Of a stretch of 64,000 nucleotides of DNA, positions 27,507 to 41,713 are shown piece after piece. The notes below the pieces were generated by a model that worked only from the letters and a program-made list of their open reading frames with translations, made no database searches and was not told the DNA's origin. Both the position numbers and the translations under genes were made by a program. Each line of letters starts with the position of its first letter. Position 1 is the stretch's first letter. Origin of the DNA: Thiobacillus sp. (lineage in GTDB: Bacteria > Pseudomonadota > Gammaproteobacteria > Burkholderiales > Thiobacillaceae); assembly GCA_018263115.1 (NCBI GenBank), contig JADFDC010000003.1, positions 1 to 64,000 of the forward strand, in the 5' to 3' direction.

Positions 27507-29018
27507 TCAATCGTCTTTCTCAGGCTTTTCCGGTTTTTCTGGCTTTTCTACCTTCTCGGGTTTTTCCGGCTTTTCGGGTTTCTCAGCCTTTTCCGGCTTC
27601 TCCACCTTTTCGGGTTTTTCCGTTTTTTCCGGCTTCTCGGCTTTTTCTGCTTTCTCAATCTTTTCTGCTTTTTCCGGTTTCTCAACGGGTTCGAATTTCT
27701 GGGCTTTTTCTGTTTCCTCATGCCGTTCCGAACGCTCATTCAATTCCCGCTCATGCGACTCCGGCTGCTCCACCTCGCCACGATCACGCTCCTCCCTGGA
27801 TTCGTTTTCATGCCGCTCGCCTTCGTGGTGTGCATCCTTTCCGGGCATTGCCGTGCCCGCGCCAGCGCTGTTGCCGCTCCCCTTCAACTCGGTTTCCTTT
27901 TCCTTCGGAACCTGGTCCTTGGCTTCGCCGCGAATTTCAATACGTTCGATAACCGTCTGGCCATTCTTTTGCCGAGCCTCAACCCTCACCAGTTGGCCGG
28001 GCTGCAAGTCCTTGATGTTGCCGCCCTTGATGCGGGTATCCGCACTCAGGGCAAAATCAACGCCTCCGACACGCACCATGCCGCCGTTGCCAGAGTGGAT
28101 ACTGTCCTGAACCACCATACGATCAACCTTGTCCAGTAAATCCTGCTTGCCGCTCGAATCAATCCGATCGGCTTTGAAACCGCCGCCTTCAGGTTTTCCA
28201 ATGGCACGGAATTCTTTTCCGGATTTCACTGAGCCAGTTCCTTCCGGCAGATGGACCCTCACACCGTTTATCGTGGCGACTCCGTTCTCGACGGTTTCCG
28301 CCTCGCCGCTGATCAAATCCGCTTCCCGCGGTTTGGCGGCATCGATCCGCGTTGCAAAAATGGAACCGGCATTCAGCCGATAGCCGCTGACCTTGATGCG
28401 GTCTCCCTGCTTGAGCCCATGTGCGCCCGGCAGGCTGACCCACTGACCCCAGACCTTGACCTTGTCGCCTTCAACAGCCTGGACGCGCCCGATCAGGGCA
28501 TGCTGAACATGAATTTGCCGGGCAACCAGATTCCCGCCTTTACCCACGGCTTCTACTGCAACCATTTGTCCGACTGCGAGCTGATCCGCTGCAACGGGTG
28601 AGCCGTTGGACACCACAGGCGTTCCGGCATCGTAGTGAATTTCAAGGCCATTCACGCACACGCTGCCGAAGCCGGTAATCTCACCGACCACGCCAGTGCC
28701 TCCCGTACCCATTCCATCGTCCTGACGGGCTTGTATGCCGGTGCCGCCATTGCCGCTGCCATCACGATGCCCCGTCCCACCTGAGCCGGAACCATCGCCA
28801 TCACGGACCTGTTTCCCAGTACCGCCGTTTCCGCTGCCATCGCGATGCCCGGTTCCACCGATGCCCGACCCATCGCCATCCGCCGGTTTCAAGCCCGTCC
28901 CGCCGATGCCTGAGCCATGCTCGACCGGGAAGGGCCGTCCACCCAGCGCGCAGGGATTTGCGGAAGCTTCGAGGCTTAATAGGATTAAGAGTAGTGCGAA
29001 AGACTGCCGAACAATCAT
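27507..29018 (-). CDS. Secreted DUF5666 protein with GGTG repeats and an EKPEK-repeat tail
   Basis: The 503-residue protein has a signal peptide (1-20), then six Gly-rich repeats of the form GSGxGGTG (about 35-108). Several beta-rich DUF5666 modules follow (about 110-370), and then a charged region and a tail of EKPEKxEK repeats (about 440-503). The tail is nearly all Glu, Lys and Pro. DUF5666 has no established function. It is the last gene of the multihaem-cytochrome operon and overlaps the DUF6502 gene by 4 nt (ATGA). Its export and flexible charged tail suggest a periplasmic or cell-surface role; linkage to electron transfer is inference from position. Confidence 0.8.
   Translation of the reverse strand: MIVRQSFALLLILLSLEASANPCALGGRPFPVEHGSGIGGTGLKPADGDGSGIGGTGHRDGSGNGGTGKQVRDGDGSGSGGTGHRDGSGNGGTGIQARQDDGMGTGGTGVVGEITGFGSVCVNGLEIHYDAGTPVVSNGSPVAADQLAVGQMVAVEAVGKGGNLVARQIHVQHALIGRVQAVEGDKVKVWGQWVSLPGAHGLKQGDRIKVSGYRLNAGSIFATRIDAAKPREADLISGEAETVENGVATINGVRVHLPEGTGSVKSGKEFRAIGKPEGGGFKADRIDSSGKQDLLDKVDRMVVQDSIHSGNGGMVRVGGVDFALSADTRIKGGNIKDLQPGQLVRVEARQKNGQTVIERIEIRGEAKDQVPKEKETELKGSGNSAGAGTAMPGKDAHHEGERHENESREERDRGEVEQPESHERELNERSERHEETEKAQKFEPVEKPEKAEKIEKAEKAEKPEKTEKPEKVEKPEKAEKPEKPEKPEKVEKPEKPEKPEKDD
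27510..27690. repeat. Low-complexity tandem repeats encoding the EKPEK tail
   Basis: Short degenerate units of CTTTTCCGG / CTTTTTCGG type (15-18 bp, on the plus strand) repeat through this stretch, each giving EKPEK or EKAEK on the minus strand. Such arrays are prone to length change by slippage. Confidence 0.8.
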
Positions 29019-29920
29019 GATGATTTATCCTGCTTTTCCTCTGCCGACTCGTTTGCCTGATAGAAATACAAACCGAAAGTAATCCGGTGCGTAGCCTTCA
29101 ACTTGCCGAAGTCAGCCTGTTGCAATTCCAGCGCCTTGCGATTCAGCGCCTGCATTGCTTCTGCCGCCAGGGTTCTTGAATAATCTGCCAGTTGATCGGC
29201 TGAATGTTCCGTCAACTGGTCAAAATAAACGCATCGGTCGAGCATGGGCGATTGCCCTGTCGTGAGGTTGTGGCCGCTTGCCGCAAGATGATCATGAATC
29301 ACCTTACCGAAATAAAACAGCTTTTCTTCCTGACCATGCGCGGGAACAAAGGCCTCGGTTCGCAGCACAACGCGCCCTTTGTCATCAACATCGGCAACCC
29401 CAAGCCTGAGCCACTCATCCAGCACGACGCGCGGGCGGATGTCCTTATTGACGCTCTGTACCAGCCGCTCGAATGAGGCATCACCACCATCTGCGGCAAG
29501 CCTGGCCAAAGGCTTGGGTCGGCCATTTGCATCCAGGTAAATCACCTCGCCCATCCATCTTGACACCAGTTGCGCGCCCAGCGAAACAGCGGGGGGCGGG
29601 CTGGACTCCGAAAGCATTTCACCACGCAGTCTTTTCACATCCTGGCGATGAATGCCAGTCAATAGACTGATCCTGCTGTCGGTTTGCGGCTTTTGGTCAA
29701 GCGGAAATTCCCGCGTAGCCACCTCGACATAAGTCAGCTTGAGCAAATTGGCCAGATAGGGAAATTGCACGCTATACGACAGCAGCAGCCGGACCAGCGG
29801 CCGTAGTATTCTCCTCAGCGCCATGACCAGCGGCAGAGGCGGCGTCACCGGACCAGAATCAATTTTGGGCTTTAGTGAAGGAAGCGGCATGCTCTTTGAA
29901 ATTTCGAACGGGCTGAACAT
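29015..29920 (-). CDS. DUF6502 family protein
   Basis: The protein of about 301 residues has the family's opening (ALRRILRPLVRLLLSYSVQF), the segment LLKLTYVEVATREF and an HTH-like region (SRISLLTGIHRQDVKRLRGE). A C-terminal alpha-helical part rich in Asp/Gln follows. DUF6502 proteins are often encoded next to DUF5666 proteins, as here; function unknown, possibly regulatory given the HTH-like segment. The ATG at 29920 is used; a later ATG at 29890 has a better AAGAG and is an alternative. There is no signal peptide, so it is cytoplasmic, unlike its operon neighbours. Confidence 0.75.
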   Translation of the reverse strand: MFSPFEISKSMPLPSLKPKIDSGPVTPPLPLVMALRRILRPLVRLLLSYSVQFPYLANLLKLTYVEVATREFPLDQKPQTDSRISLLTGIHRQDVKRLRGEMLSESSPPPAVSLGAQLVSRWMGEVIYLDANGRPKPLARLAADGGDASFERLVQSVNKDIRPRVVLDEWLRLGVADVDDKGRVVLRTEAFVPAHGQEEKLFYFGKVIHDHLAASGHNLTTGQSPMLDRCVYFDQLTEHSADQLADYSRTLAAEAMQALNRKALELQQADFGKLKATHRITFGLYFYQANESAEEKQDKSS

Positions 29921-29941
29921 CAAACTTATGCAGACAAGTAC

Positions 29942-31234
29942 TTAGGGTACTACGTTATCGATGCTGACTTGAATACCCTGGCTGCCCGGCTTGACCGGGC
30001 CGGCCGCGCCCTCCAGATCGCCGCTTTGCGCAGAGGCGTTGCCAGACCGCGAAATTCGCGCAACCACTTTCACCGAGGTTGCGTCTGATAACTTCATGTC
30101 CGGCGACATGCCGCTGGAATCGTCCAGGCTGAACCGCAAGGGCAGCTCGCTGGCCTTGTAGCTCGCAATGGCCAGCGGCATGCGCGGGCCTTTTTCAGCC
30201 CTGGCAAAAATGAAAACCGTGTCATCTGGCCTGACCTTGCCAGCCAGTTGTGGCGCAAGCTTGACGTTGCCGGTGATACTGGCGCCGCCCGGAGCCAGGC
30301 TGGCCGATGCAGAGCGGGCAGGCATGATGTCTGGTAACGCTGCGACAGGAGGACGGCCCTCCATCCGTGCGTGCGCTTCTTCGAGGCTGCCCTGAATAGA
30401 ACGGGCAAACTCTGAATCAGCCGGGGCGGTTTGAACTACCTTTTCCCAATAGCCAACAGCCTCCTTGTAATCCTTGTGCTCGAAGGCCGCGGTGCCGGCC
30501 AGCGCCAGCGCTTTCAGGTTGGTGGGGTCGGTCTTCAGCGCCCATTTGATGATTTCCAGCGGCTTGCCATCCAGCTTCTGGCCTTGCGACATGGCCAGCG
30601 CATCGGCATAGTCCGCCATCAACTGGGCATCGGGCGGCAGCAGTGAAGCCGCCTTCTCGTAGGCCGAAGCCGCTTCCTGATAACGTCCCAGCACGTTCCA
30701 GGAACGCGCGAGCATGGCCCAGCCCTCGCCGTCAGAAGGATTGGCCTGCATGCGTTGCGCCAACTTGTCCGCGCTTTCGCGAATCTGTTCAAATGACATG
30801 CCGTGCGGGCTTTCCGGTTGAGCAGACCCGCTGGCAATAGCCACAGTGCCGGACGCAGGCGCGAGTGACGCTGCTTCTGGAGAGCCCAGTTTGAGATAGA
30901 TGCCAATAGCTGCGACAGGCAGTAGAACCGCTATGACGACTGGTACCCAACGCGATTTCTCCGTCTGTCCGACAGGAATATCGTTCAGCGAAGACAACGC
31001 ATCCTCGATCGCCCGTCGTCCCAATTCCTGACGTTCGGATTCGAACTGGACGGAGTCCAGAGTCCCCTTGTCCGCCTCCGATTGCAGTTCTTTCAGCTGG
31101 TCTCGGTATATCTGTGCATTGGAGCGAATGCGTGACATCTGGTTTTCGCCATCCCTGCTCCGAGTCAAGGCTGGCAAGACAAATGCCAGGCCCAATGCGA
31201 CCATCAACCCCATCAAAACCAGAAACCCCGTCAT
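29942..31234 (-). CDS. ccmI: CcmI-like cytochrome c biogenesis protein (TPR)
   Basis: The 430-residue protein has two N-terminal transmembrane segments (about 2-20 and 95-112) flanking a cytoplasmic coiled-coil loop (YRDQLKELQSEADKGTL). Periplasmic TPRs follow (about 150-290) and then a C-terminal beta domain. This is the CcmI/NrfG layout: CcmI presents apocytochrome to the haem lyase CcmF/H. The other ccm genes are absent, so this copy sits directly in the multihaem cytochrome operon, where it could chaperone cytochromes with tens of haem sites. Confidence 0.82.
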   Translation of the reverse strand: MTGFLVLMGLMVALGLAFVLPALTRSRDGENQMSRIRSNAQIYRDQLKELQSEADKGTLDSVQFESERQELGRRAIEDALSSLNDIPVGQTEKSRWVPVVIAVLLPVAAIGIYLKLGSPEAASLAPASGTVAIASGSAQPESPHGMSFEQIRESADKLAQRMQANPSDGEGWAMLARSWNVLGRYQEAASAYEKAASLLPPDAQLMADYADALAMSQGQKLDGKPLEIIKWALKTDPTNLKALALAGTAAFEHKDYKEAVGYWEKVVQTAPADSEFARSIQGSLEEAHARMEGRPPVAALPDIMPARSASASLAPGGASITGNVKLAPQLAGKVRPDDTVFIFARAEKGPRMPLAIASYKASELPLRFSLDDSSGMSPDMKLSDATSVKVVARISRSGNASAQSGDLEGAAGPVKPGSQGIQVSIDNVVP

Positions 31235-31292
31235 GCCAGTTTCCTGCAGCCTTTCTGCTCAAACATGTGCTTGCTTGATCCTGTTAAGAGCC

Positions 31293-33776
31293 TCAAAAAT
31301 CCCAACGATAGCCCAGCGAAAAATAATGGGTTTGTGAAATGTCCTGCGTGCCTGGGCTATCCGTGGTGGCATGTTCATAAATATATTCGCCATCCAGGCT
31401 CACGGATTCCCTGATGCGGTAACTGACTCGAATACCCGGCGTCCAGCGTTTCAATTCCGTGCTGGGGTCGGTTTGCTGCCGATAGTATTTGAGCGAAGGC
31501 TCCAGCGACCACTTGTCGCCAAGGTAGGTCGTATTGTTATATGCAATCTGCACGCCGGTGAACGAAGGCGTGGACTCAGGCGCATCGGTATAGGACAGTG
31601 AGAACACATTGATGTCGCGTCCGGAAAACAGATTGGTGCCGATGGCACGAAGCGCGTAATTCATGATGTTCCCGGTTGCCGGACTTGGATTGAGCACCGT
31701 TCCGTCATCCAGCGTCACCTGTGGAAGCGCGCCAATATTGGTCAGCCCGATATCCGCGCCAAGCTGCCAGCCTGGATTGAGCGGCGTGGTCAAACCAAAC
31801 TGGGCCTGCGTGGCGATGGCGGTGGCATCCTCGGCCAGGGCTCGGATCTGGTCTTCCGTGCGCACCGTGAGCAACTGCTTGATGGATGTAGGAATGGGAA
31901 TCAGCGATGTCACTACACTGTTATACAGCGCATTGTGCGTGGAGAGGGTGGGCGCACGCCGCCGGTCCAGCAGTAGGTTGAATGTGGTCTGCCCCGCGGT
32001 TTGCCACGAGCCCTGCAGCATGGCGATATTCAGGATGTCATAGCTGACGTCATAATCCACCAGCGAATACAGCGAACGGCGCTCGTCAAAGTAGCGCACC
32101 TCTCCGCCGACTGCCCGCCGGTCCAGGATGCCATCCACCTGCTGCTCGACAAAAAAGGCATTGCCGCTCCAACGGCCGGCCAGATTCTCGGCATCAAGGC
32201 TCAGCCCCCAGAACTTGCGGTCGGAATCCAGCGTAGGAAATTCCACCGGCAGGCCAAGCGCAAAATTGACCTTGTACTTGGGCATGAAGCCATAACCCAA
32301 TGTCGCGCCATCAAAGCGGTTGGGCAAGCCGCTGCCGTAGCCGCTCTGGCGGCCGACTCTGGCATTGAAATTGTTCTGCAAGCCCTTGTAATCGTAATAG
32401 GCCGCAGTCAGGCGGTTTCGTGTCGGCACGGATTCCAGGAAACTCCACGTATGCGTGTCGCGCACGACGAACCGGTGATCCGCATTGACATCACGGTAAC
32501 GGCCATTGAGATCGACGTTGGTGACGAGCGATGACTGATCGATGCCCGAAATGGAGGATTTTTCAACTGTGGTGGGCGTGTTGAACGCCGTCTGGGTCTG
32601 CGATTGGCCGCCGTAATAATACTGGGATAGGCTGCCGCTGAAGGTCTTGACTATTTTGGTCTCAGGAACCCGCTTCGCCACGGCATCCGGCGCACCTGGC
32701 ACAGATTGCTGCTGCACATTCAATGCAGCCAGCCGCTCACGAATCCTGGCTGCACCTTCGCCTTCCGGGAACAGTTTGAGATAAAGCTCGTACTCGGTTT
32801 TTGCCTTGGCCAGTTCGCCATTGCGCTCACGTGCCAGGCCGATCAGCTCCTGGCCCTCCTGCGAATGCGCATTGGGCGGCAGGAATAGAAGCTGGTTGAA
32901 CAGGTTGACTGCCTGCTCGTTGTTGCCGGCTTCCAGCGCGGCTTTGGCCTGTTTCATCAGGCTGGCTGCCTGTTCCTCCACTTCAGGAATCGCGGCCTGC
33001 TCGACAGGCGGCGCGGGCTGCGCTTCCGCTGGTGCGGGCTTCCTTGCCACAGAACCAAGCGTCTGTTGCCTGCGGCTGGCCATATCGACAACGGCCGCCT
33101 CGGTAAACACGGAAACCAACTGGCCGCGGAGTTTTTCAGCCGCCGCAGCATCCGGCAGATAGCCCAGATAAAGCTCGTAGACAGTCTTGCCATCCCTGGT
33201 CTGCTGGGACGTGAACACATCGTAATCCGCGAAGCGCGCGGGCACGGCTCTATCCCCGAGCGCCTCCTTGCTGGCGGCGCTCAACAACCTGACCGCATAA
33301 CGCCTGTTGTCCTTGACCGCTGTTTTGCCCGCATCCTTGAACACGATGTCCAGGCTGCGATCGTCCGGGCCAGCCTTGATCGTGGCTTCCGTCCGCTTGC
33401 TGAATTTGACCAGCAGCTTCTTGATCTGCGTCCCCGACTGGGGCGGAAACGACACCGACACGCCGGGCAGGGAAGCAACAGGTTTGGTTTTCAGCAGTTC
33501 CTCAACCTTGAGTTGCAGCTCCGAGCCTTCCACGATCCTGAAATACACAATGGCCGCACTGCCATTCTCTGCCGCGGCCTGCCGAATGTAATGAATGCGC
33601 GCGTTGAATTTGATGCGGACAACATTGTCCGTCCTGCCCGGTTGGACCTGCAATTCCTCCATCACGTTCGCCAGCGCGGGCGGCACACCACCCATGCATA
33701 AACCCAGGCTGATGAGTGAGATGGCGGTTTTCTTTCTTGCGCATACGTGCATGGGTTGAGTCTTTCCTTTAATCAT
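31293..33776 (-). CDS. Outer-membrane SPOR/TPR/beta-barrel protein of the multihaem cluster (putative porin)
   Basis: The 827-residue precursor begins with a signal peptide (AISLISLGLCMGGVPPALA; a second start at 33752 gives a cleaner leader). It continues with an AMIN-like beta domain (about 40-150), a SPOR-like segment (YAVRLLSA...KLRGQLVSVF, about 160-235) and TPRs (about 265-345). From about residue 385 there are alternating amphipathic strands with aromatic girdles, ending HYFSLGYRWDF: an outer-membrane beta-barrel with a terminal Phe. With 35-plus and 24-haem cytochromes immediately upstream in the operon, it is the best candidate for the barrel that carries a cytochrome through the outer membrane. 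No database match was possible here. Confidence 0.72.
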   Translation of the reverse strand: MIKGKTQPMHVCARKKTAISLISLGLCMGGVPPALANVMEELQVQPGRTDNVVRIKFNARIHYIRQAAAENGSAAIVYFRIVEGSELQLKVEELLKTKPVASLPGVSVSFPPQSGTQIKKLLVKFSKRTEATIKAGPDDRSLDIVFKDAGKTAVKDNRRYAVRLLSAASKEALGDRAVPARFADYDVFTSQQTRDGKTVYELYLGYLPDAAAAEKLRGQLVSVFTEAAVVDMASRRQQTLGSVARKPAPAEAQPAPPVEQAAIPEVEEQAASLMKQAKAALEAGNNEQAVNLFNQLLFLPPNAHSQEGQELIGLARERNGELAKAKTEYELYLKLFPEGEGAARIRERLAALNVQQQSVPGAPDAVAKRVPETKIVKTFSGSLSQYYYGGQSQTQTAFNTPTTVEKSSISGIDQSSLVTNVDLNGRYRDVNADHRFVVRDTHTWSFLESVPTRNRLTAAYYDYKGLQNNFNARVGRQSGYGSGLPNRFDGATLGYGFMPKYKVNFALGLPVEFPTLDSDRKFWGLSLDAENLAGRWSGNAFFVEQQVDGILDRRAVGGEVRYFDERRSLYSLVDYDVSYDILNIAMLQGSWQTAGQTTFNLLLDRRRAPTLSTHNALYNSVVTSLIPIPTSIKQLLTVRTEDQIRALAEDATAIATQAQFGLTTPLNPGWQLGADIGLTNIGALPQVTLDDGTVLNPSPATGNIMNYALRAIGTNLFSGRDINVFSLSYTDAPESTPSFTGVQIAYNNTTYLGDKWSLEPSLKYYRQQTDPSTELKRWTPGIRVSYRIRESVSLDGEYIYEHATTDSPGTQDISQTHYFSLGYRWDF

Positions 33777-33781
33777 GAAAA

Positions 33782-36553
33782 TCAGAAATCTCCGCCGGTG
33801 GATTTATGCTCGCCACTGCGTGTTTTCTTGATGGTGGTAAACGTGTTGTTCGTGTACTCATGGCAACTGCCCGAGCAATCCTTCAATTCCCCGACCGTGT
33901 ACAGAATCTTGGGCGAATCCACCTTCTTGTGCGCATCCGGTTTGAACTTGCTGGCATGGCATCCCGCGCAATCCGGTTTGTAGGCGGCAAATTTCCACAC
34001 AACCACCTCGTTGTTCGTGGTATGGCATGAAGCGCATGTCACGCCGGAATTGTGCGGCTTGTAGAACGGCGAGGTGTGCGTATAGGCCTTTGTGGGCGTC
34101 CAGGCCGTGGTCGTGTGGCAACTGTCGCATGAGCGGGTCGTCACAAAATGCCCGGACGATTTACCGGTAGCCGTGGATCCGTTATGACAGGTTGCGCAAG
34201 TCCCTGGAGCAACGCTCGCATGACTGAAAGTCGCAGGCAGCCACGCAGTCGTCTTGTGGCAGGAGTCGCAAGAGGCCGTCGTTGCCAAATGCGTGCCGGG
34301 CTTGCCAGTCGCGCTTGAACCGTTATGGCAGGTAGCACACGTTCCGGGGACAACACCCGTATGACTGAATGTGGCTGGCAGCCAGGCGGTGGTGCGATGG
34401 CAGGAGTCGCAGGATGAAGTCGTCGGAATGTGAGCGCTCGGCTTGCCCGTGGCGGTCGAGCCATTGTGGCAGGTCGAACAGGTGCCAGGCGCCACCCCAG
34501 TATGACTGAACGTGGCCGGCAGCCAGGCCGTGGTCTTGTGACAGCTGTCGCACGAAGCAGTGGTCGGGATATGGCTGGTGGGCTTGCCCGTTGCGGTCGA
34601 TCCGTTGTGGCAGGTCGAACAGGTGCCGGGCGCTACGCCGGTGTGGCTGAAGGTTGCTGGCAACCAGGCCGTGGTCTTGTGGCAAGAGTCGCAGGATGCA
34701 CTGGTTGGAATATGCGTCGATGGTTTGCCGGTGGCAGTCGACCCGTTATGGCAGGTCGAGCACGTTCCCGGCGCAACACCAGTATGGCTGAACGTGGCCG
34801 GCAGCCAGGCCGTGGTCTTGTGGCAGGAATCGCAGGACGCTGAAGTCGGTATGTGGGTCGACGGCTTTCCAGTGGCAGTGCTGCCATTGTGGCAAGTCGA
34901 ACACGTTCCCGGCGCTACGCCAGTATGGCTGAACGTGGCAGGCAGCCAGGCCGTGGTCTTGTGGCAGGAATCGCACGAGGTGGTAGTCGGGATGTGCGTC
35001 GACGGCTTTCCAGTGGCAGTGCTGCCATTGTGGCATGTCGAACAGGTTCCCGGCGCAACGCCAGTGTGACTGAACGTGGCAGGCAGCCAGGCCGTAGTCT
35101 TGTGGCAGGAATCGCACGAGGTGGTAGTCGGGATGTGCGTCGACGGCTTTCCCGTTGCGGTGCTGCCATTGTGGCAGGTCGAACAGGTTCCCGGTGCAAT
35201 GCCAGCGTGACTCATTGTGGCAGTATTCCAGGATGAGGTCTTATGACAGGTATCACACGCCGCGCTGGTTGGGATATGCGTGCTGGGCTTGCCCGTTGCC
35301 GTTGAGCCGTTATGGCAGGTCGCGCAGGTCCCGGGGGCAATGCCCGCATGATTCATGGTCGCGGGTTTCCATGCCGCGGTCTTGTGACAGTTGTCGCATG
35401 AAGCAGTCGTGGGAATATGGCTGGACGGCTTGCCCTTTGCCGTTGAACCATTGTGGCAGGTCGAGCAGGACCCGGGCGCCACGCCTGAATGATTGAAGGT
35501 GGCAGGCAGCCACGCCGAGGTTTTATGGCAGGAATCGCACGAGGCAGAAGTCGGCACATGCTTTGCCGGCTTGCCTTTGGCGCTGATGCCATTGTGGCAG
35601 GTCGAGCAGGTGCCCGGTGCAACGCCAGTGTGACTGAAAGTGGCTGGCAGCCATGCAGTTGTTTTGTGGCAACCGTCGCATGAAGCACTGGTAGGAATAT
35701 GACTGGATGGTTTGCCTTTCGCGGTCGAACCATTATGACAGGTTGAGCATGTACCGGGGCTGACGCCGGCATGGCTGAACGAGGCCGGGAGCCATGCCGA
35801 GGTTTTGTGGCAGGAGTCGCACGAAGCCGAAGTTGAAATGTGTTTTGCCGGTTTGCCTTTGGCGCTGGTGCCATTGTGGCAGGTCGAGCAGGCGCCCGGC
35901 GCAACGCCGGCGTGACTGAATGCCGCCGGTGTCCATGCGGTGGTCTTGTGGCAACTGTCGCAAGCCGAAGTTGTGGGGATATGCCCGGAGTGTTTGCCCC
36001 TGGCGGACGATCCGTTATGGCAGCTTGCGCAGCTGCCGGCAGCCACAGTGGAATGGCCGAATTTCGCCGGCGTCCAGGCAGATGTCTTGTGACAGCTGTC
36101 GCAAGGCGCGGGGGTGGCGATGTGCCCAGCGGGTTTCCCCTTGGCCTTGCTGCTGTTGTGGCAGCTTGCGCAGGAGCCTGCCGCAACTCCCGAATGATCA
36201 AACCTGGCGCCGCTGAACGTTGTCGTGTTGTGACACGTGCTGCAAGACTGCTTGGTGGGAATATGATTAGTGGGCAAGGTCGTTGTTGCGCGCTGACTGC
36301 CCGCCGTGTGGCAGCTCGAACACTGCGTGGGCGTGCCCTTGAATACGCCACGGACGTGGCAGGATTCGCAGCGTGTGTTTGCATGCGCGCCCGTCAGCGC
36401 AAAACCCGTCGTGATGTGGTCGAAGCGGGTTTTACCCGGTTGCGCGGCAAGAGCATCGGGCAGGAAACCTGCCAGCAAACAGACCAGCAGAATCGCAATG
36501 ATAGTTGCGAGCAATGGATAGCGCGTACGCTCATGGATAAACAAGTGCATCAT
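33782..36553 (-). CDS. Giant multihaem c-type cytochrome: 35 CXXCH plus one CX3CH
   Basis: The ATG at 36553 (AGGAG 4 nt upstream, 4-nt overlap with the previous stop) gives 923 residues with a signal peptide (YPLLATIIAILLV...PDALAA). I count 35 CXXCH motifs and one C-terminal CSGSCH (CX3CH). Fifteen repeats of exactly 47 residues (pattern HIPTxxxCDSCHKTTAW-LPATFSHTG-VAPGTCSTCHNG) each hold two haem sites. They also carry two extra conserved His (HIPT and FSH), enough for bis-His ligation of both haems. Two haems precede the array and three CXXCH plus the CX3CH follow. It should form a long haem wire, periplasmic or extracellular. No known enzyme domain is present. Confidence 0.93.
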   Translation of the reverse strand: MMHLFIHERTRYPLLATIIAILLVCLLAGFLPDALAAQPGKTRFDHITTGFALTGAHANTRCESCHVRGVFKGTPTQCSSCHTAGSQRATTTLPTNHIPTKQSCSTCHNTTTFSGARFDHSGVAAGSCASCHNSSKAKGKPAGHIATPAPCDSCHKTSAWTPAKFGHSTVAAGSCASCHNGSSARGKHSGHIPTTSACDSCHKTTAWTPAAFSHAGVAPGACSTCHNGTSAKGKPAKHISTSASCDSCHKTSAWLPASFSHAGVSPGTCSTCHNGSTAKGKPSSHIPTSASCDGCHKTTAWLPATFSHTGVAPGTCSTCHNGISAKGKPAKHVPTSASCDSCHKTSAWLPATFNHSGVAPGSCSTCHNGSTAKGKPSSHIPTTASCDNCHKTAAWKPATMNHAGIAPGTCATCHNGSTATGKPSTHIPTSAACDTCHKTSSWNTATMSHAGIAPGTCSTCHNGSTATGKPSTHIPTTTSCDSCHKTTAWLPATFSHTGVAPGTCSTCHNGSTATGKPSTHIPTTTSCDSCHKTTAWLPATFSHTGVAPGTCSTCHNGSTATGKPSTHIPTSASCDSCHKTTAWLPATFSHTGVAPGTCSTCHNGSTATGKPSTHIPTSASCDSCHKTTAWLPATFSHTGVAPGTCSTCHNGSTATGKPTSHIPTTASCDSCHKTTAWLPATFSHTGVAPGTCSTCHNGSTATGKPSAHIPTTSSCDSCHRTTAWLPATFSHTGVVPGTCATCHNGSSATGKPGTHLATTASCDSCHKTTAWLPATFSHASVAPGTCATCHNGSTATGKSSGHFVTTRSCDSCHTTTAWTPTKAYTHTSPFYKPHNSGVTCASCHTTNNEVVVWKFAAYKPDCAGCHASKFKPDAHKKVDSPKILYTVGELKDCSGSCHEYTNNTFTTIKKTRSGEHKSTGGDF
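34151..36265. repeat. Tandem array of fifteen 141-bp repeats in the cytochrome gene
   Basis: The H codons that begin unit 1 (36265) and the partial unit 16 (34150) lie exactly 15 x 141 bp apart, so no unit has gained or lost a net codon. Neighbouring units in the middle (about 34.4-35.2 kb) are nearly identical, pointing to recent duplication or homogenisation; end units are more diverged. Confidence 0.9.
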
Positions 36554-38463
36554 GAGTCTCCTCTTTCCGCGGCCCGGTTGAACGGATGAGCCGCCTTCCC
36601 GCACAGCCCGTGTGTTACTGACGGGCAAACGGGAATTTCTGCCGGCATGTGCCGGATGAGCGTATCCCCTCCCACGCGGAGCCTGATCCGCTTGAAGGAG
36701 GATGTTTCGTGACATTTCTGACACTGGGGACCGTAGCTGCCATCGTGCACGTCGTCTTTTTCATGACAACTTATGCAGTTCATCGGCAGCACGGCCTTGC
36801 TGGAAACTGGATTCTTGTGACAGGCGTAACAATCCAGCGGCTTGTGGCCGCCATCCAGACGAAACCGGGTCTTGGCGTCATGGTTGAAATCCCACAGGCG
36901 CCAGTTGCGCGCGTTGTGGCAGCTCTCGCATTGCGCGCCGAGACGCCGCTTGTGCACGTCCTCCTTGTCGTGGCAGGCCACGCACTCCGTTTTCGCATCC
37001 TTGAACTGCGCTGTAATATGGCACTTCTTGCACTCGACAACGAGATGCTTGCCGGCCAGCGGAAAACGTGAACGCCCGTGATTGAAGGTCGTGCGCTTCC
37101 AGTTGCTGGCGTCGTGGCAGACTTCGCACTTCTCGCTTTGCTGCCCCTTGTGCACGTCATCTTTCTTGTGACAGGCCAGGCAGGCTGACGGCGTGTTTTT
37201 GTATTTCATATCCTTGTGACAGTCATCGCACTTCACTTCGCGGTGCTTGCCCAGCAGCACAAACTTCGTCTTGTCGTGATCAAAGCGGTGTTCCTTCCAG
37301 TTGCGTTCGCCATGGCAGTCGCCGCACTGATCACCCAGCGTGCCTTTGTGCTTGTCATCTTTTTTATGGCAGGCAAGACAGGTCATGGGCGTATCCTTGA
37401 ACACCGCGGTCTTGTGGCAGGCCTTGCATTCAATTTCATCGTGCTTCCCGCGCAGAGGGAAGCGTGATTTGCCGTGATCGAATCGCGCTTCCTTCCAGTC
37501 GCGCTCGACGTGGCAGTCCGCGCATTTTTCGCCCAGGGTGTTCTTGTGCTTGTCATCCTTCTTGTGACACGCAATGCAGGCGGTTTGCAGCTTGTCGCGA
37601 TAAAGATTGCCGGTATGGCAGTTGTCGCACTTCGTCTGGCGATGTTTGCCACGCAGGGCGTATTTCGTGTCCGCGTCGTGATCGAACAGAATTTCATCCC
37701 AGGCCCTGGCGTTGTGACAGGTCTGGCATTTTTCGCCATAGCGGCCCTTGTGCTTGTCATCCTTGCGGTGACAGGACACACAGGTCGTGGGCGTGTTTTT
37801 GAAGGCATTGTTCTTGTGGCAATCCTTGCATGGCACCTTGACATGCTTGTCTTCCAGCTTGAATTTGGTCTTGTCGTGATCAAACCTGGCTTCCTTCCAG
37901 TCATTTTCTGTGTGGCAGTCGGCGCACTTGGTGCCCAGCTTGCCTTTGTGCTCATCATCATTCTTGTGGCAGGCGATACAGACCGTCTGCGCGTTCCGGT
38001 ATTTGGCGCCGGGCCGGTGGCATTTATTGCATTCCGTCTCCGCGTGTCTGCCTTTGAGCAGATAATCCGTCTGCCGGTGGTCAAATTTCTTTTCATCCAG
38101 TTCAACCACGCGGGCATCCCTGCCCTTGTGGTCGGTATGGCATTCGCGGCAGAACCTGTCTTCCTTTGCCCTGCCGTGATAACCCTGTTTCAGCGAGACA
38201 TCCCGCGCAACCTCCTTATGACAATCACCGCACAGCGCATCCTGGCCTGCCCGGTTGAAACGGACATGGCATTTGTTGCACTGGCTTTCCGTCTTGGCAT
38301 GGCCTTTTATGACCTTGCCCGGCATCAGCACACTTTCCAGCGAATCCGCCCTGACACCGCTGGCAAGCGGCAGCATCAGCATCGCCAGCAGGACAAGCCA
38401 TCCCGCTATTGCCAGCACGGCGCGCATAGTCTGCATCCGCGCCACTTCCCGCAGATGATTCAT
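36550..38463 (-). CDS. 24-haem-site multihaem cytochrome c
   Basis: The ATG at 38463 overlaps the stop of the upstream membrane-protein gene (TGATG) and gives 637 residues with a signal peptide (LAIAGWLVLLAMLMLPLASG). I count 24 CXXCH motifs. From about residue 90 they recur in triplets on a roughly 62-residue module: CxDCH..W..xxFDH..T.F.L.GKH, then C..CH...F, then CxxCHKKDDKHKG. Each module offers three additional His (FDH, GKH, DKH), suiting bis-His haems. The protein is Lys/Asp-rich and quite unlike the Ser/Thr-rich neighbour, so the two may act in different compartments, for instance periplasm versus surface. Confidence 0.93.
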   Translation of the reverse strand: MNHLREVARMQTMRAVLAIAGWLVLLAMLMLPLASGVRADSLESVLMPGKVIKGHAKTESQCNKCHVRFNRAGQDALCGDCHKEVARDVSLKQGYHGRAKEDRFCRECHTDHKGRDARVVELDEKKFDHRQTDYLLKGRHAETECNKCHRPGAKYRNAQTVCIACHKNDDEHKGKLGTKCADCHTENDWKEARFDHDKTKFKLEDKHVKVPCKDCHKNNAFKNTPTTCVSCHRKDDKHKGRYGEKCQTCHNARAWDEILFDHDADTKYALRGKHRQTKCDNCHTGNLYRDKLQTACIACHKKDDKHKNTLGEKCADCHVERDWKEARFDHGKSRFPLRGKHDEIECKACHKTAVFKDTPMTCLACHKKDDKHKGTLGDQCGDCHGERNWKEHRFDHDKTKFVLLGKHREVKCDDCHKDMKYKNTPSACLACHKKDDVHKGQQSEKCEVCHDASNWKRTTFNHGRSRFPLAGKHLVVECKKCHITAQFKDAKTECVACHDKEDVHKRRLGAQCESCHNARNWRLWDFNHDAKTRFRLDGGHKPLDCYACHKNPVSSKAVLPMNCISCHEKDDVHDGSYGPQCQKCHETSSFKRIRLRVGGDTLIRHMPAEIPVCPSVTHGLCGKAAHPFNRAAERGDS

Positions 38464-39404
38464 CAATACATGTGCACCGCAACCACATGCGCGATTGCGC
38501 TCAGGACCAGCATGTAAACCAGCGGCACATGCAAAACGTGCCACAGTGAAAACAAGCGTTCGTAGGTGCTGAAATGCGCGACGTTCTGTACGCCCCGCAG
38601 ATAGGCAAGCACCACCTGCAGTGCCGCCTTGGACCTGCGCTGGGTCTTGGCCTTGTCCCAGCCTCGCGCGCGCGCCTGTTCAGCATAGAGGCCTTTAAGT
38701 TCCCGCGAGCAGTTCAGATAAACCACCCAGGCACGTACCGGCAGCGTGAGAAAGGCCCACGCGTCTGAAACAGGATTGCCGCGTTTTTGCAGCACACAGG
38801 ATTCAAAGGCGGCCAAGGCGGCTTCCACCCTGGGCGCAAAAGACAGTTTGGACTGGACCTCCTGCGAGTTCAGGCCTGAAATCTCCCGCACTTCTTCCAG
38901 ACTGGCCCGGTGTCCGTACAGGCCATGGTGGATTTTTGTATAAATGAAACGGCCGATGATGCCGCTGCCCGCAACCAGGGACATGCTGGCCAGGGCAACA
39001 CCTGCATTGATTGAACCAACCTGAAACCGGGAATGCGCCAGGATGAACAACGGCCCCAGGATGCCCATCGCCATGTGAATGGCAAACCAGTATTTGGCCG
39101 GACCCAGACCGCGCATGAAACGGAAATGCTTGCGCAGCGGATAGAGGAACAGAACCAGCATCATGATACCGCCGGCCAGACCCAAGTTGTAGCCGGTTTC
39201 CGAACCCGGTTTATAGTCGCCCCAATAACCGATCAGCCAGGCCGCGCCGATCAGCAGGGCAACGGCAAGCACGAAACCCAGGGGTTGGGGATCGTGACGT
39301 ACATGTATCTTTTGGGGAAAGGCGGGAGACTCGCCAGCCCGGACGTTCAGTATTAATGTTTCCTGCATGTTGCGATCTTGATTTTCTGCCGTGGTTGAAT
39401 GCAT
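38463..39404 (-). CDS. Cytochrome b-like inner-membrane protein of the multihaem cluster
   Basis: The protein of up to 313 residues has about five transmembrane helices: residues about 42-62, 73-90, 105-124, 131-152 and 285-310. His residues stand at helix faces (AIHMAMG, ILAHSRF, LWHVLHVPLVY, AIAHVVAVH), suggesting b-type haem ligation as in ferric-reductase or b561-like proteins. A soluble loop (about 160-275) separates helices 4 and 5. As first gene of the operon it could link the quinone pool or the divergent flavoprotein to periplasmic haems. An alternative start is the ATG at 39368. I do not recognise a named family. Confidence 0.7.
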   Translation of the reverse strand: MHSTTAENQDRNMQETLILNVRAGESPAFPQKIHVRHDPQPLGFVLAVALLIGAAWLIGYWGDYKPGSETGYNLGLAGGIMMLVLFLYPLRKHFRFMRGLGPAKYWFAIHMAMGILGPLFILAHSRFQVGSINAGVALASMSLVAGSGIIGRFIYTKIHHGLYGHRASLEEVREISGLNSQEVQSKLSFAPRVEAALAAFESCVLQKRGNPVSDAWAFLTLPVRAWVVYLNCSRELKGLYAEQARARGWDKAKTQRRSKAALQVVLAYLRGVQNVAHFSTYERLFSLWHVLHVPLVYMLVLSAIAHVVAVHMY

Positions 39405-39452
39405 CTGTGTTGAACAACTAACGGATGCATGACGTGTTAATTTACCCCATTG

Positions 39453-39471
39453 CGTGTAAAAAGTTCACACG
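39453..39471. promoter_or_regulatory. 19-bp near-palindrome in the divergent promoter region of the cytochrome cluster
   Basis: CGTGTaAAAAGTTcACACG has matching arms except for one pair, with a further CGTGTTAA half-site 20 bp to its left (39433-39440). It lies between the divergently transcribed cytochrome operon and the flavoprotein gene and is a good operator candidate. The regulator is unknown; the centre does not fit the CRP/FNR consensus well. Confidence 0.45.
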
Positions 39472-39597
39472 TTTTTTTAAATTACATTGATTATTAAGGG
39501 GATTTTTTTGAAATTGCCGGGTAAAATCTGTCCATGCAAGGTGTTTTCTTAAAAATGGAAATGGCCGCGATTCATCAGCGGGCCGCCAAGTTCTGAA

Positions 39598-40902
39598 ATG
39601 AGCGCATCCATCCTGACAGGCATACTTCTGTATGTCATTCCGCTGGTTATCGTCTTCTTCCTGTATTTCCGGCGCCGGGCAAAGCGGGCGATCCGGCACG
39701 CGGAAGCGTTGCAGGAATCGCGCGAAAGCGGCCTGACCGAGCCGGTCAGCCTGCACCCTGTCATTGATCCCGTTCGATGCCTTGGTTCTTCCTCCTGCGT
39801 GCGCGCCTGCCCGGAAGGATCGCTGGGCATCATCAACGGCAAGGCTTATCTGGTGAACCCGACTGTTTGCATCGGGCACGGCGCCTGCATGGCGGCCTGT
39901 CCGCTGGATGCCATCAAGCTGGTGTTTGGCACGGAAAAACGCGGCGTGGATATTCCCTATGTCACGCCAAAATTCGAAACCAACGTGCCGGGCATTTTCA
40001 TTGCAGGGGAACTGGGTGGCATGGGTCTGGTGCGCAAGGCCGCGGAACAGGGGAAACAGGCCATCGCCGCCATCAAGGAATTACAGGGCAGCGGCAAGGA
40101 CCTGGACGTGGTCATCGTCGGTTCGGGCCCAGCGGGAATCACGGCCGGCCTGGGCGCCATCCAGCACAAGCTGCGCTATCGCATTGTCGAGCAGGAGGAT
40201 TCGCTGGGCGGAACGGTCTACCACTATCCGCGCAACAAGATCGTGATGACGACGCCGGTCAATCTGCCCCTGGTGGGCAAGGTAAAAATGGCTGAAATCA
40301 GCAAGGAGGCCCTGCTTGAATTCTGGCATGGCATCGTCGGCAAAACCGGGCTGCGGATCAGCTTCAATGAACGCATGGAAGAAATCCGGCCGGATGGCGA
40401 AGGCTTTGTTGTCAAGACATCGCGGGGCGAATACGCCACCCGCGCCGTGCTGCTGGCGATTGGCCGCCGCGGCACGCCACGCAAACTGGGGGTGGAAGGC
40501 GAGGAACTGCCGAAGGTTGTTTACCGGTTGATTGATCCCGAACAGTACCAGGGACAGAAAGTGCTGGTGGTGGGCGGTGGCGACAGTGCGCTGGAAGCGG
40601 CACTGGCCATTTCGGAACAGCCGGGGACGGATGTGACATTGTCTTACCGGAGCGATGCATTCGGGCGCGTCAAGATCAGGAACCGCCAGCGGCTTGAGGA
40701 CGCCCAATCGAATAAGCGTGTCCGGGTCATACTCAATTCCAATGTACTTCGCATTGATCCCGCCACCGTCCTGTTGAAATGCGCGGAAGAACAAATTGAA
40801 CTGCCGAATGACGCCGTCATCATCTCGGCGGGCGGCGTGTTGCCGATTGATCTGCTGAAAAAAACCGGTATCCGGTTCGAGACCAAGCACGGTACAGAAT
40901 AA
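39598..40902 (+). CDS. Membrane-anchored 2x[4Fe-4S] ferredoxin / FAD-NAD(P) oxidoreductase
   Basis: The 434-residue protein has one N-terminal transmembrane helix (about 4-23) and a two-cluster ferredoxin domain (CLGSSSCVRACPEG about 61-74 and CIGHGACMAACPLD about 92-105). A thioredoxin-reductase-like flavoprotein follows, with FAD-binding VVIVGSGPAGITAG (about 167-180) and NAD(P)-binding VLVVGGGDSALEAAL (about 322-336). The CxxC of thioredoxin reductase is absent. It would shuttle electrons between NAD(P)H, flavin and Fe-S at the cytoplasmic face. It is divergent from the cytochrome b-like gene across a 193-bp region, suggesting co-regulation with the haem conduit. Confidence 0.85.
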   Translation: MSASILTGILLYVIPLVIVFFLYFRRRAKRAIRHAEALQESRESGLTEPVSLHPVIDPVRCLGSSSCVRACPEGSLGIINGKAYLVNPTVCIGHGACMAACPLDAIKLVFGTEKRGVDIPYVTPKFETNVPGIFIAGELGGMGLVRKAAEQGKQAIAAIKELQGSGKDLDVVIVGSGPAGITAGLGAIQHKLRYRIVEQEDSLGGTVYHYPRNKIVMTTPVNLPLVGKVKMAEISKEALLEFWHGIVGKTGLRISFNERMEEIRPDGEGFVVKTSRGEYATRAVLLAIGRRGTPRKLGVEGEELPKVVYRLIDPEQYQGQKVLVVGGGDSALEAALAISEQPGTDVTLSYRSDAFGRVKIRNRQRLEDAQSNKRVRVILNSNVLRIDPATVLLKCAEEQIELPNDAVIISAGGVLPIDLLKKTGIRFETKHGTE

Positions 40903-40957
40903 TGTCGCACCGAATCCCTTACAATTGGCAGTGTTTTATCCTGCCTCCAGGTACTCC

Positions 40958-41713
40958 ATGACCAGAACAATAACCGCCATCCTCGCCCTGCTCGTCAGCT
41001 GCCAGGCATTTGCCGAAGACAACCGCCTGAGCCTGTCCACGGGTCTTGACTACAGCGTGGGGGATTACGGCACACCGGACGATAATGAAACCTGGTTTCT
41101 GCCGCTCAACCTTAAATACCAATCTGGTGATTACAGCTTCAAGCTGGGCATGTCCTACCTATGGGTACGAGGCCCGCAAAATGTGACGCCAGATGGCGAA
41201 CCGATTCCTGGCGGCGGCGTTGTGACCACCACCCATGGGTTCGGTGATGTGACCGCGTCACTCACCGCCGACATACTGAATGAAAAGAGCCATCCATTCG
41301 GGCTTGACCTGACCGGCAAGATCAAATTCGGCACGGCAAGCGAAAGCAAGGCGCTTGGCACGGGGAAAAACGACTACGCGTTGCAGGCTTCATTCTATAA
41401 ATCACTAGCCGGATGGATGCCTTATCTTGACATTGCCTACCGCTGGAAGGGTGACCCGACTGGCATCAATTACCGGAATGTCTGGTATGTGACAGCCGGA
41501 ACCAGCTACCGTTACAACAAGATCTGGTCGGTGGGCACGGACTACGCATGGCGCGAGAAGCTGACACCCGGTGGTGACGAAATCAGTGAATCCACGGTTT
41601 ACGCCAACTACAAAATCAGTAACCACAACAAACTCAACTTGTATGGCGTGGCAGGCTTTTCCGATGCCAGTCCAGACTGGGGACTGGGTTTCATGCTGAC
41701 ACACGTCTTTTAG
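40958..41713 (+). CDS. Outer-membrane beta-barrel protein (transporter-like)
   Basis: The 251-residue precursor has a signal peptide (MTRTITAILALLVSCQAFA) and then alternating aromatic/polar strands ending in GLGFMLTHVF, with the C-terminal Phe of an outer-membrane barrel. Composition resembles small barrels of the 'phenol-degradation MetA-like' class, whose cargo is unknown. I chose the ATG at 40958 because the earlier in-frame codons (from 40925) break the leader. It follows the flavoprotein gene by 55 bp and ends at a terminator, so it might belong to the same transcript. Confidence 0.7.
   Translation: MTRTITAILALLVSCQAFAEDNRLSLSTGLDYSVGDYGTPDDNETWFLPLNLKYQSGDYSFKLGMSYLWVRGPQNVTPDGEPIPGGGVVTTTHGFGDVTASLTADILNEKSHPFGLDLTGKIKFGTASESKALGTGKNDYALQASFYKSLAGWMPYLDIAYRWKGDPTGINYRNVWYVTAGTSYRYNKIWSVGTDYAWREKLTPGGDEISESTVYANYKISNHNKLNLYGVAGFSDASPDWGLGFMLTHVF

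Follow-up and report, generated by a model that had tools for sequence, protein, structure and literature searches.

Here we describe eight genes at positions 27507-40902 of a 64,000-nucleotide stretch of DNA from Thiobacillus sp. (contig JADFDC010000003.1 of assembly GCA_018263115.1, positions 1 to 64,000; hereafter the window). The minus-strand genes of this locus make up a complete PCC3 porin-cytochrome cluster, a conduit type that has had little study and that connects the inner membrane with the cell surface. Diverging from them is the gene of an iron-sulphur (Fe-S) flavoprotein which, judging from sequence comparisons, is very probably a conserved fifth core component of PCC3 at its cytoplasmic end. 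An earlier, sequence-only reading of the window listed this gene last; it is the most informative gene of the locus. The locus itself is of a kind already described; new are a core component that seems to have escaped notice, its permuted architecture, and a direction of electron flow that it implies and that can be tested. In the main-text passages searched in PCC3 papers, the flavoprotein is not named as a component.

The locus is a PCC3 cluster

All eight genes were confirmed. Leftward from a divergent intergenic region (39405-39597) run the genes for the inner-membrane protein (IMP), a 24-haem cytochrome, a 35(+1)-haem cytochrome, the outer-membrane barrel, CcmI, a DUF6502 protein and a DUF5666 protein, with overlaps or gaps of 58, 18 and 5 bp, as had been read from the sequence. 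Rightward, the flavoprotein gene is followed by that of an unrelated small outer-membrane protein (OMP). The conduit and its proposed partner consist of the following features.

38463..39404, minus strand: PCC3 IMP, predicted di-haem b protein with five transmembrane (TM) segments and a ~120-aa TM4-TM5 loop predicted to be cytoplasmic
36550..38463, minus strand: periplasmic multihaem cytochrome (MHC), 24 haem sites, eight tri-haem modules of ~67 aa, predicted signal sequence, PF14522
33782..36553, minus strand: extracellular MHC, 35 CXXCH and one CX3CH, 47-aa di-haem repeats, predicted signal sequence
31293..33776, minus strand: outer-membrane barrel ('porin') with an N-terminal AMIN-like/SPOR/TPR periplasmic part, from an AlphaFold model
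39598..40902, plus strand: ferredoxin-flavoprotein, membrane-tethered, circularly permuted, resembling thioredoxin reductase (TrxR)/FNR-type enzymes; proposed fifth core component
39405..39597, no strand: divergent intergenic region between the IMP and flavoprotein genes, 193 bp, A+T-rich, presumed to hold promoters for both

PCC3 was described in 2017 by He et al. (PMC5566968) with a four-part definition and a model that ends at the quinone pool. The published IMP has ~300 aa and five TM segments, with WX3HX13H on TM3 and TM5 and SGXXG on TM4 (PMC5566968). The window IMP, 313 aa long, carries WX3HX13H at residues 106 and 288 and SGIIG at 147, which is the exact published signature, and the four motif histidines are invariant in a 66-sequence alignment. 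The 24 CXXCH of the periplasmic cytochrome and the 35 CXXCH plus one CX3CH of the extracellular cytochrome, as counted in the sequence-only reading, were confirmed. Published PCC3 haem medians are 21 periplasmic and 34 extracellular (PMC5566968), with ranges of 21-27 and 10-35 in a survey of Gallionellaceae (PMC10734462). The order IMP, periplasmic MHC, extracellular MHC, barrel is found at this locus and in dozens of other loci. Every structural hallmark of PCC3 is present: gene order, IMP motifs, haem-rich MHCs and a large outer-membrane barrel.

The PCC3 signature, the haem-rich MHCs and the modelled barrel bear out the trans-envelope electron conduit proposed from the sequence, and the suggested likeness to porin-cytochrome clusters of Gallionellaceae was correct, the cluster type being PCC3. 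Linkage of these genes, set beforehand as a test, is conserved in dozens of genomes; the nearest named loci belong to a Hydrogenophilaceae and a Thiobacillus metagenome-assembled genome (MAG), which makes a host within the Gallionellaceae improbable. From its gene content, the cluster is predicted to move electrons across the envelope. An unusual composition had also been claimed, which we do not find: a CcmI paralogue lies beside the cluster in 12 of 17 PCC3 genomes of the order, and DUF6502/DUF5666 is probably a separate unit.

Comparison with known systems places the cluster further. It shares with published PCC3 (PMC5566968, PMC10734462) the IMP with two WX3HX13H motifs and SGXXG, the giant MHCs, the barrel and the gene order; the main-text definition differs in lacking both an Fe-S flavoprotein and a CcmI paralogue and in a model that ends at quinones. 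PCC4 (PMC5566968) also has an IMP with similar histidine motifs and, in subgroup II, an Fe-S gene near the IMP, but its IMPs are not homologous overall to those of PCC3, it has no extracellular MHC, and the Fe-S gene is pfam13247 rather than the flavoprotein described here. MtrCAB and MtoAB work alike, with a periplasmic MHC, a barrel and an extracellular MHC, whereas no protein of the window cluster scores above cut-off for an MtrA or MtrB family, and the cluster carries far more haems. Its score against the MtrA-type decahaem (DmsE family TIGR03508), 122.7 bits, is repeat-driven and falls below the cut-off of 192.2.

The flavoprotein accompanies the IMP

We surveyed 300 genomes of the order, using E <= 1e-10 for the IMP and E <= 1e-60 for the flavoprotein. 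Each protein is present in 17 genomes, which represent nine families, and the two sets of genomes are identical. The probability of such 17/17 agreement by chance is ~10^-27 if genomes are independent, and ~10^-9.5 over 51 families. The two genes adjoin in 16 of the 17 genomes and lie ~8 kb apart in the remaining one (G264). Among 299 genomes sampled across the phylum, the two proteins again coincide, in four genomes; in one of these (G340), two contig ends part the cluster within the gene of the extracellular cytochrome. In both surveys, every such pair sits within a single cluster. Weak IMP matches in this sample (E ~1e-5 to 1e-8, mostly partial or short open reading frames (ORFs)) were not counted as PCC3; they may represent the shorter IMPs outside PCC3 to which the 2017 paper refers.

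Of 80 named IMP loci, 68 include the flavoprotein gene, usually immediately upstream and in divergent orientation. Nine of the remaining 12 belong to genomes that hold the gene elsewhere, leaving three genomes without it, in one of which (L064) the IMP has no cytochrome gene nearby. The next gene beyond the flavoprotein (OMP, 40925) served as an internal control and is kept in 2 of 80 loci. Conservation is higher in the flavoprotein than in the IMP (57-66% versus 40-52% identity), and distances of the two proteins correlate over 28 loci (r = 0.89; 0 of 1000 permutations as high), about as for IMP and barrel. Shared ancestry accounts for part of this correlation.

Architecture of the flavoprotein

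The flavoprotein matches the Pyr_redox_3 and Fer4 families. It begins with a single helix, followed by a basic stretch and a ferredoxin-like domain; because of the basic stretch after the helix, the positive-inside rule places the body of the protein in the cytoplasm (tether C-in). Its Fe-S motifs read C-x5-C-x3-CP(E) and CIGHGAC-x3-CP. The membrane-anchored, divergent FAD oxidoreductase of the sequence-only reading was correct in outline; the [4Fe-4S] assignment is unproven because each motif has three cysteines, with Ser64 and His94 standing where the second cysteine is normally found. His94 is invariant (68 of 68 sequences), position 64 is Ser, Cys or Ala, and no cysteine beyond the six of the Fe-S motifs is conserved. 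A DNA pattern for CIGHGAC matches in all 17 PCC3 genomes and in two others, both of which we rejected as relatives since the matches lie in chance non-coding frames of 53 and 22 aa.

The FAD domain is circularly permuted, as matches to family models show. A segment canonical for the C-terminus of the fold, FETNVPGIFIAGELGG...QGxQA, precedes the GxGPAG motif in the flavoprotein. When this segment is restored to the end, the PF07992 match grows from 2-251 to 2-291 of 291 model positions (83.8 to 97.3 bits), PF13738 reaches full length, and the match to a thioredoxin reductase model extends from 2-207 to 2-297 of 300. In alignments to solved YpdA chains, the region gained matches their C-terminal part, whereas the domain in its native order stops short of it. 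Within a limited collection of papers, a search turned up no circularly permuted flavoprotein of this kind.

The closest solved chains are 7a7b, 7a76 and 2zbw. YpdA, TrxR and FNR-type enzymes resemble the window protein in their FAD and NAD(P)H Rossmann domains; the window protein differs in its circular permutation, in its N-terminal TM helix and ferredoxin-like domain, and in lacking a conserved redox disulphide. It scores 154.7 bits against the YpdA bacillithiol disulphide reductase model TIGR04018, below the cut-off of 339.9. The redox-active CXXC of thioredoxin reductase is absent from the NADPH domain, the conserved cysteines being those of the Fe-S motifs. The protein retains Arg351 of the NADPH motif, without having the canonical HRRxxxR.

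The core occurs with other outer-membrane exits

The flavoprotein is also present in Nitrospirota loci (L045, L046), and some clusters that lack the PCC3 barrel carry it together with the IMP and an 18-24-haem MHC. In seven loci (L050, L057, L063, L089, L096, L100, L102), the IMP and an 18-24-haem MHC stand beside a Uet-like divergent set, again with the flavoprotein except in L102, which is cut off. This set comprises a tetrahaem protein, an NHL protein, a ~700-aa protein, a second NHL protein and a 12-haem protein; its likeness to Uet is one of composition only. The window itself is without the Uet pathway genes described in PMC10734462 (tetrahaem UetA, UetC barrel, NHL proteins and 11-12-haem UetJ).

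An operon on plasmid pEMTOL02 of the Bacteroidota species Emticicia oligotrophica (L171:11043-22841) encodes, in order, ResB/CcsA, IMP, flavoprotein, a 23-haem cytochrome, a 40-haem cytochrome and a putative barrel. In its IMP, the two histidine motifs and SGXXG are preserved; its flavoprotein shares 49% identity with that of the window and reads CVGHGAC, and the last protein has no recognisable relation to the PCC3 barrel. In existing annotation, the proteins of this operon appear only as hypothetical and cytochrome c3 family. Because the Uet-like clusters and the Emticicia operon keep the core without the PCC3 barrel, gene content points to IMP, flavoprotein and periplasmic wire as the stable core, with an outer-membrane exit that varies. 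No flavoprotein relatives were found in phage records.

Proposed electron route and its direction

The AlphaFold2 (AF2) model of the IMP has a predicted local distance difference test (pLDDT) score of 85. Positive-inside charge counts place loop 4 (~122 aa, 20 K+R) in the cytoplasm. The IMP has no Pfam match, a Foldseek search gave no match at E < 0.001, and VIA matches were generic helical bundles; neither the IMP nor the repeat cytochrome has a sequence match in the PDB. The spacing of its histidines agrees with that of ferric-reductase/NOX-like domains of the PF01794 kind. That a cytoplasmic flavoprotein is the near-invariant partner of a di-haem b IMP with a large basic cytoplasmic loop suggests a NOX-like arrangement. 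NOX, ferric reductases and MsrQ offer a working analogy, in which a flavin enzyme on the cytoplasmic side passes electrons to two stacked haems b held by HX13H on TM3 and TM5; the window module differs in having separate polypeptides and an unrelated flavoprotein fold.

We propose that the window encodes a PCC3 conduit whose fifth core component is NAD(P)H-reactive and sits at the cytoplasmic end, a reading that we consider probable. Electrons would pass from NAD(P)H to the FAD of the permuted flavoprotein, to the His/Ser-containing Fe-S sites beside its membrane anchor, and from there to the cytoplasm-side haem b of the IMP (His110/His292) and on to the periplasm-side haem b (His124/His306). 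The periplasmic wire of tri-haem modules would receive them and pass them through the outer-membrane barrel to the extracellular 35-haem cytochrome and an external acceptor, and CcmI would serve haem attachment to the cluster cytochromes. We infer both the physical contact of flavoprotein and IMP and the use of NAD(P)H as substrate.

For the outward direction, itself inferred, we see about an even chance. It is favoured because passing Fe(II)-level electrons inward to NAD(P)+ would run steeply uphill, opposed by redox potential and membrane potential alike, while export from an NAD(P)H-reactive end would be downhill; with such an end, Fe(II) oxidation would be the less plausible function of the two. 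We tentatively suggest, at a little under even probability, that iron oxidation is not the main role of PCC3, which would instead be an exporter powered by NAD(P)H and made of a two-protein NOX-like module (the permuted flavoprotein with its His-containing Fe-S site, and the di-haem b IMP), a periplasm-spanning tri-haem wire and an interchangeable exit (PCC3 barrel with large MHC, Uet-like set or Bacteroidota putative barrel). Two reports in which Fe(II) does not induce PCC3 count for the proposal: the PCC3 clusters of Sideroxydans lithotrophicus ES-1 are down on Fe(II) (PMC8788666), and on neither Fe(II)-citrate nor magnetite was its extracellular PCC3 cytochrome detected (PMC12016527).

Several points weigh against this proposal. 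The assemblies of two gammaproteobacterial MAGs (L091, L097) contain complete PCC3 clusters and lack the flavoprotein. The IMP model has no convincing relative in the PDB that would support a NOX/ferric-reductase-like fold, and NAD(P)H use by the flavoprotein is suggested by family resemblance in a protein that does not keep HRRxxxR. The papers covered report no biochemistry on any PCC3 protein. Many PCC3 hosts oxidise Fe(II), and in Sideroxydans CL21 one of the PCC3 copies (copy 2) has an IMP that increases with the ability to oxidise iron (PMC12442390). Published PCC3 expression neither proves nor excludes export. These hosts and the CL21 result fit the published model of 2017 (PMC5566968), in which electrons from extracellular Fe(II) or minerals enter through PCC3 and the IMP to the quinone pool and the flavoprotein would only tune or bypass the flow; a RuBisCO-like match above cut-off at a contig edge in the window's genome points the same way. 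This inward conduit, which we regard as rather unlikely, sits poorly with the fall of ES-1 transcripts on Fe(II) and with a near-invariant cytoplasmic NAD(P)H-type flavoprotein, which quinone reduction would not need.

Less probable still is a flavoprotein off the electron path, acting in maintenance or maturation, for instance as an electron source for the haem or thiol chemistry by which these cytochromes are made, or as an Fe-S redox sensor. Its nearest solved relatives are indeed thiol-disulphide and FNR-type reductases, and the clusters also attract CcmI or CcsA; the protein is membrane-tethered, however, with no conserved cysteine beyond the six Fe-S ones, no evident redox disulphide and, in a family profile search, no DNA-binding domain. 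That flavoprotein and IMP are merely co-inherited neighbours on one mobile segment seems very improbable. The cluster is evidently mobile, given the Emticicia plasmid and a patchy distribution, yet the association persists across divergent, downstream and within-operon arrangements, the next neighbour gene is not kept, and invariant residues point to selection.

PCC3 has been put forward many times as a candidate for iron oxidation; in ES-1, the single strain for which this was compared, transcript levels decrease on Fe(II) (PMC8788666). A near-invariant cytoplasmic partner provides a concrete biochemical handle on PCC3 and makes its direction testable. If the NAD(P)H-linked export proposed here is true, genomes bearing PCC3 would be re-read as having an export route and the genetic definition of PCC3 would change; a circularly permuted ferredoxin-flavoprotein with an invariant histidine at an Fe-S ligand position would be a new enzyme architecture.

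Cytochromes and barrel

Among 70 complete proteins, periplasmic PCC3 cytochromes have only 18, 21, 24 or 27 haems, because they are strings of ~67-aa tri-haem modules; the Emticicia protein (23 haems) is an exception, with one incomplete last module. Extracellular PCC3 cytochromes range from 7 to 60 haems. The narrow, stepwise length of the former would fit a periplasm-spanning molecule, with the outer cytochrome free to vary.

In the window extracellular cytochrome, central 47-aa di-haem repeats (~residues 490-820 of the ORF, window 33782-36553) are up to 91% identical in DNA, indicating recent duplication or homogenisation. Because of this near-identity, haem number in the extracellular cytochrome may be readily changed by recombination. 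Contig breaks fall in such repeats at L118/L119. Two gene starts in the cluster required correcting; for the extracellular cytochrome, a 980-aa ORF as called, the start is very probably 36550 or 36553 (~922 aa), overlapping the preceding stop, since a Shine-Dalgarno AGAGGAG precedes these positions. No consensus sigma-70 promoter was found in the divergent region 39405-39597.

A non-barrel model of the 827-aa protein had been named as a refutation of the conduit; AlphaFold instead gives a confident outer-membrane barrel. The AF2 model (mean pLDDT 86.5) has ~22 long strands in residues 376-826, mostly at pLDDT > 90, and in structural comparison this part aligns to TonB-dependent receptors and FimD (Z 16-18.7). 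The N-terminal half models as a beta (AMIN-like) domain followed by SPOR-like and TPR-like parts. Of the SPOR/TPR-barrel fusion proposed from sequence, the barrel stands, and the SPOR and TPR assignments, whose Pfam matches are mostly below cut-offs, are supported by the structure model. The barrel can be unlinked from the core: in one genome (G216:C1), IMP and flavoprotein lie at 66.9-69.3 kb and a PCC3-type barrel at 390.6 kb.

CcmI and neighbouring genes

The remaining minus-strand genes are as follows.

29942..31234, minus strand: CcmI paralogue, apocytochrome chaperone of cytochrome c maturation, TIGR03142
29015..29923, minus strand: DUF6502 protein, PF20112, co-directional neighbour, probably outside the conduit
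27507..29018, minus strand: DUF5666 protein, PF18914, GSGIGGTG and EKPEK repeats, probably outside the conduit

The window CcmI scores 89.6 bits against TIGR03142 (cut-off 29.3) and 125.3 bits against PF23892, the CycH Ig-like domain (cut-off 27). Its identity as CcmI stands, and as a dedicated copy it is not the only one in the genome: a complete ccm operon on another contig has its own CcmI, 38% identical to that of the window. In the 12 of 17 PCC3 genomes of the order noted above, the CcmI match lies beside the cluster or within a few kb. We rejected a single clade of PCC3 CcmIs, because the CcmI tree requires several independent recruitments to PCC3, and Emticicia has a ResB/CcsA fusion in place of CcmI. 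PCC3-neighbouring CcmI matches with an internal stop occur in G028 (C2:25207-25965), G182 and G243, and also in L152 and L153; these copies may be decaying.

DUF6502, included in the conduit by the sequence-only reading together with DUF5666, was found in 5 of 19 PCC3 genomes, for the most part away from the cluster. An overlapping DUF5666-DUF6502 pair also lies away from PCC3 (L158), and we rejected the pair as a conduit part by default; it is probably an unrelated two-gene unit. Overlapping pairs recur independently of PCC3 (window 27507-29923; L158; L101; L057). The window DUF5666 protein combines its GSGIGGTG repeats with an EKPEK-rich tail. Beyond the flavoprotein, the gene at 40925-41713 encodes a small OMP-like beta-barrel that is kept only in the two closest loci (L031, L032).

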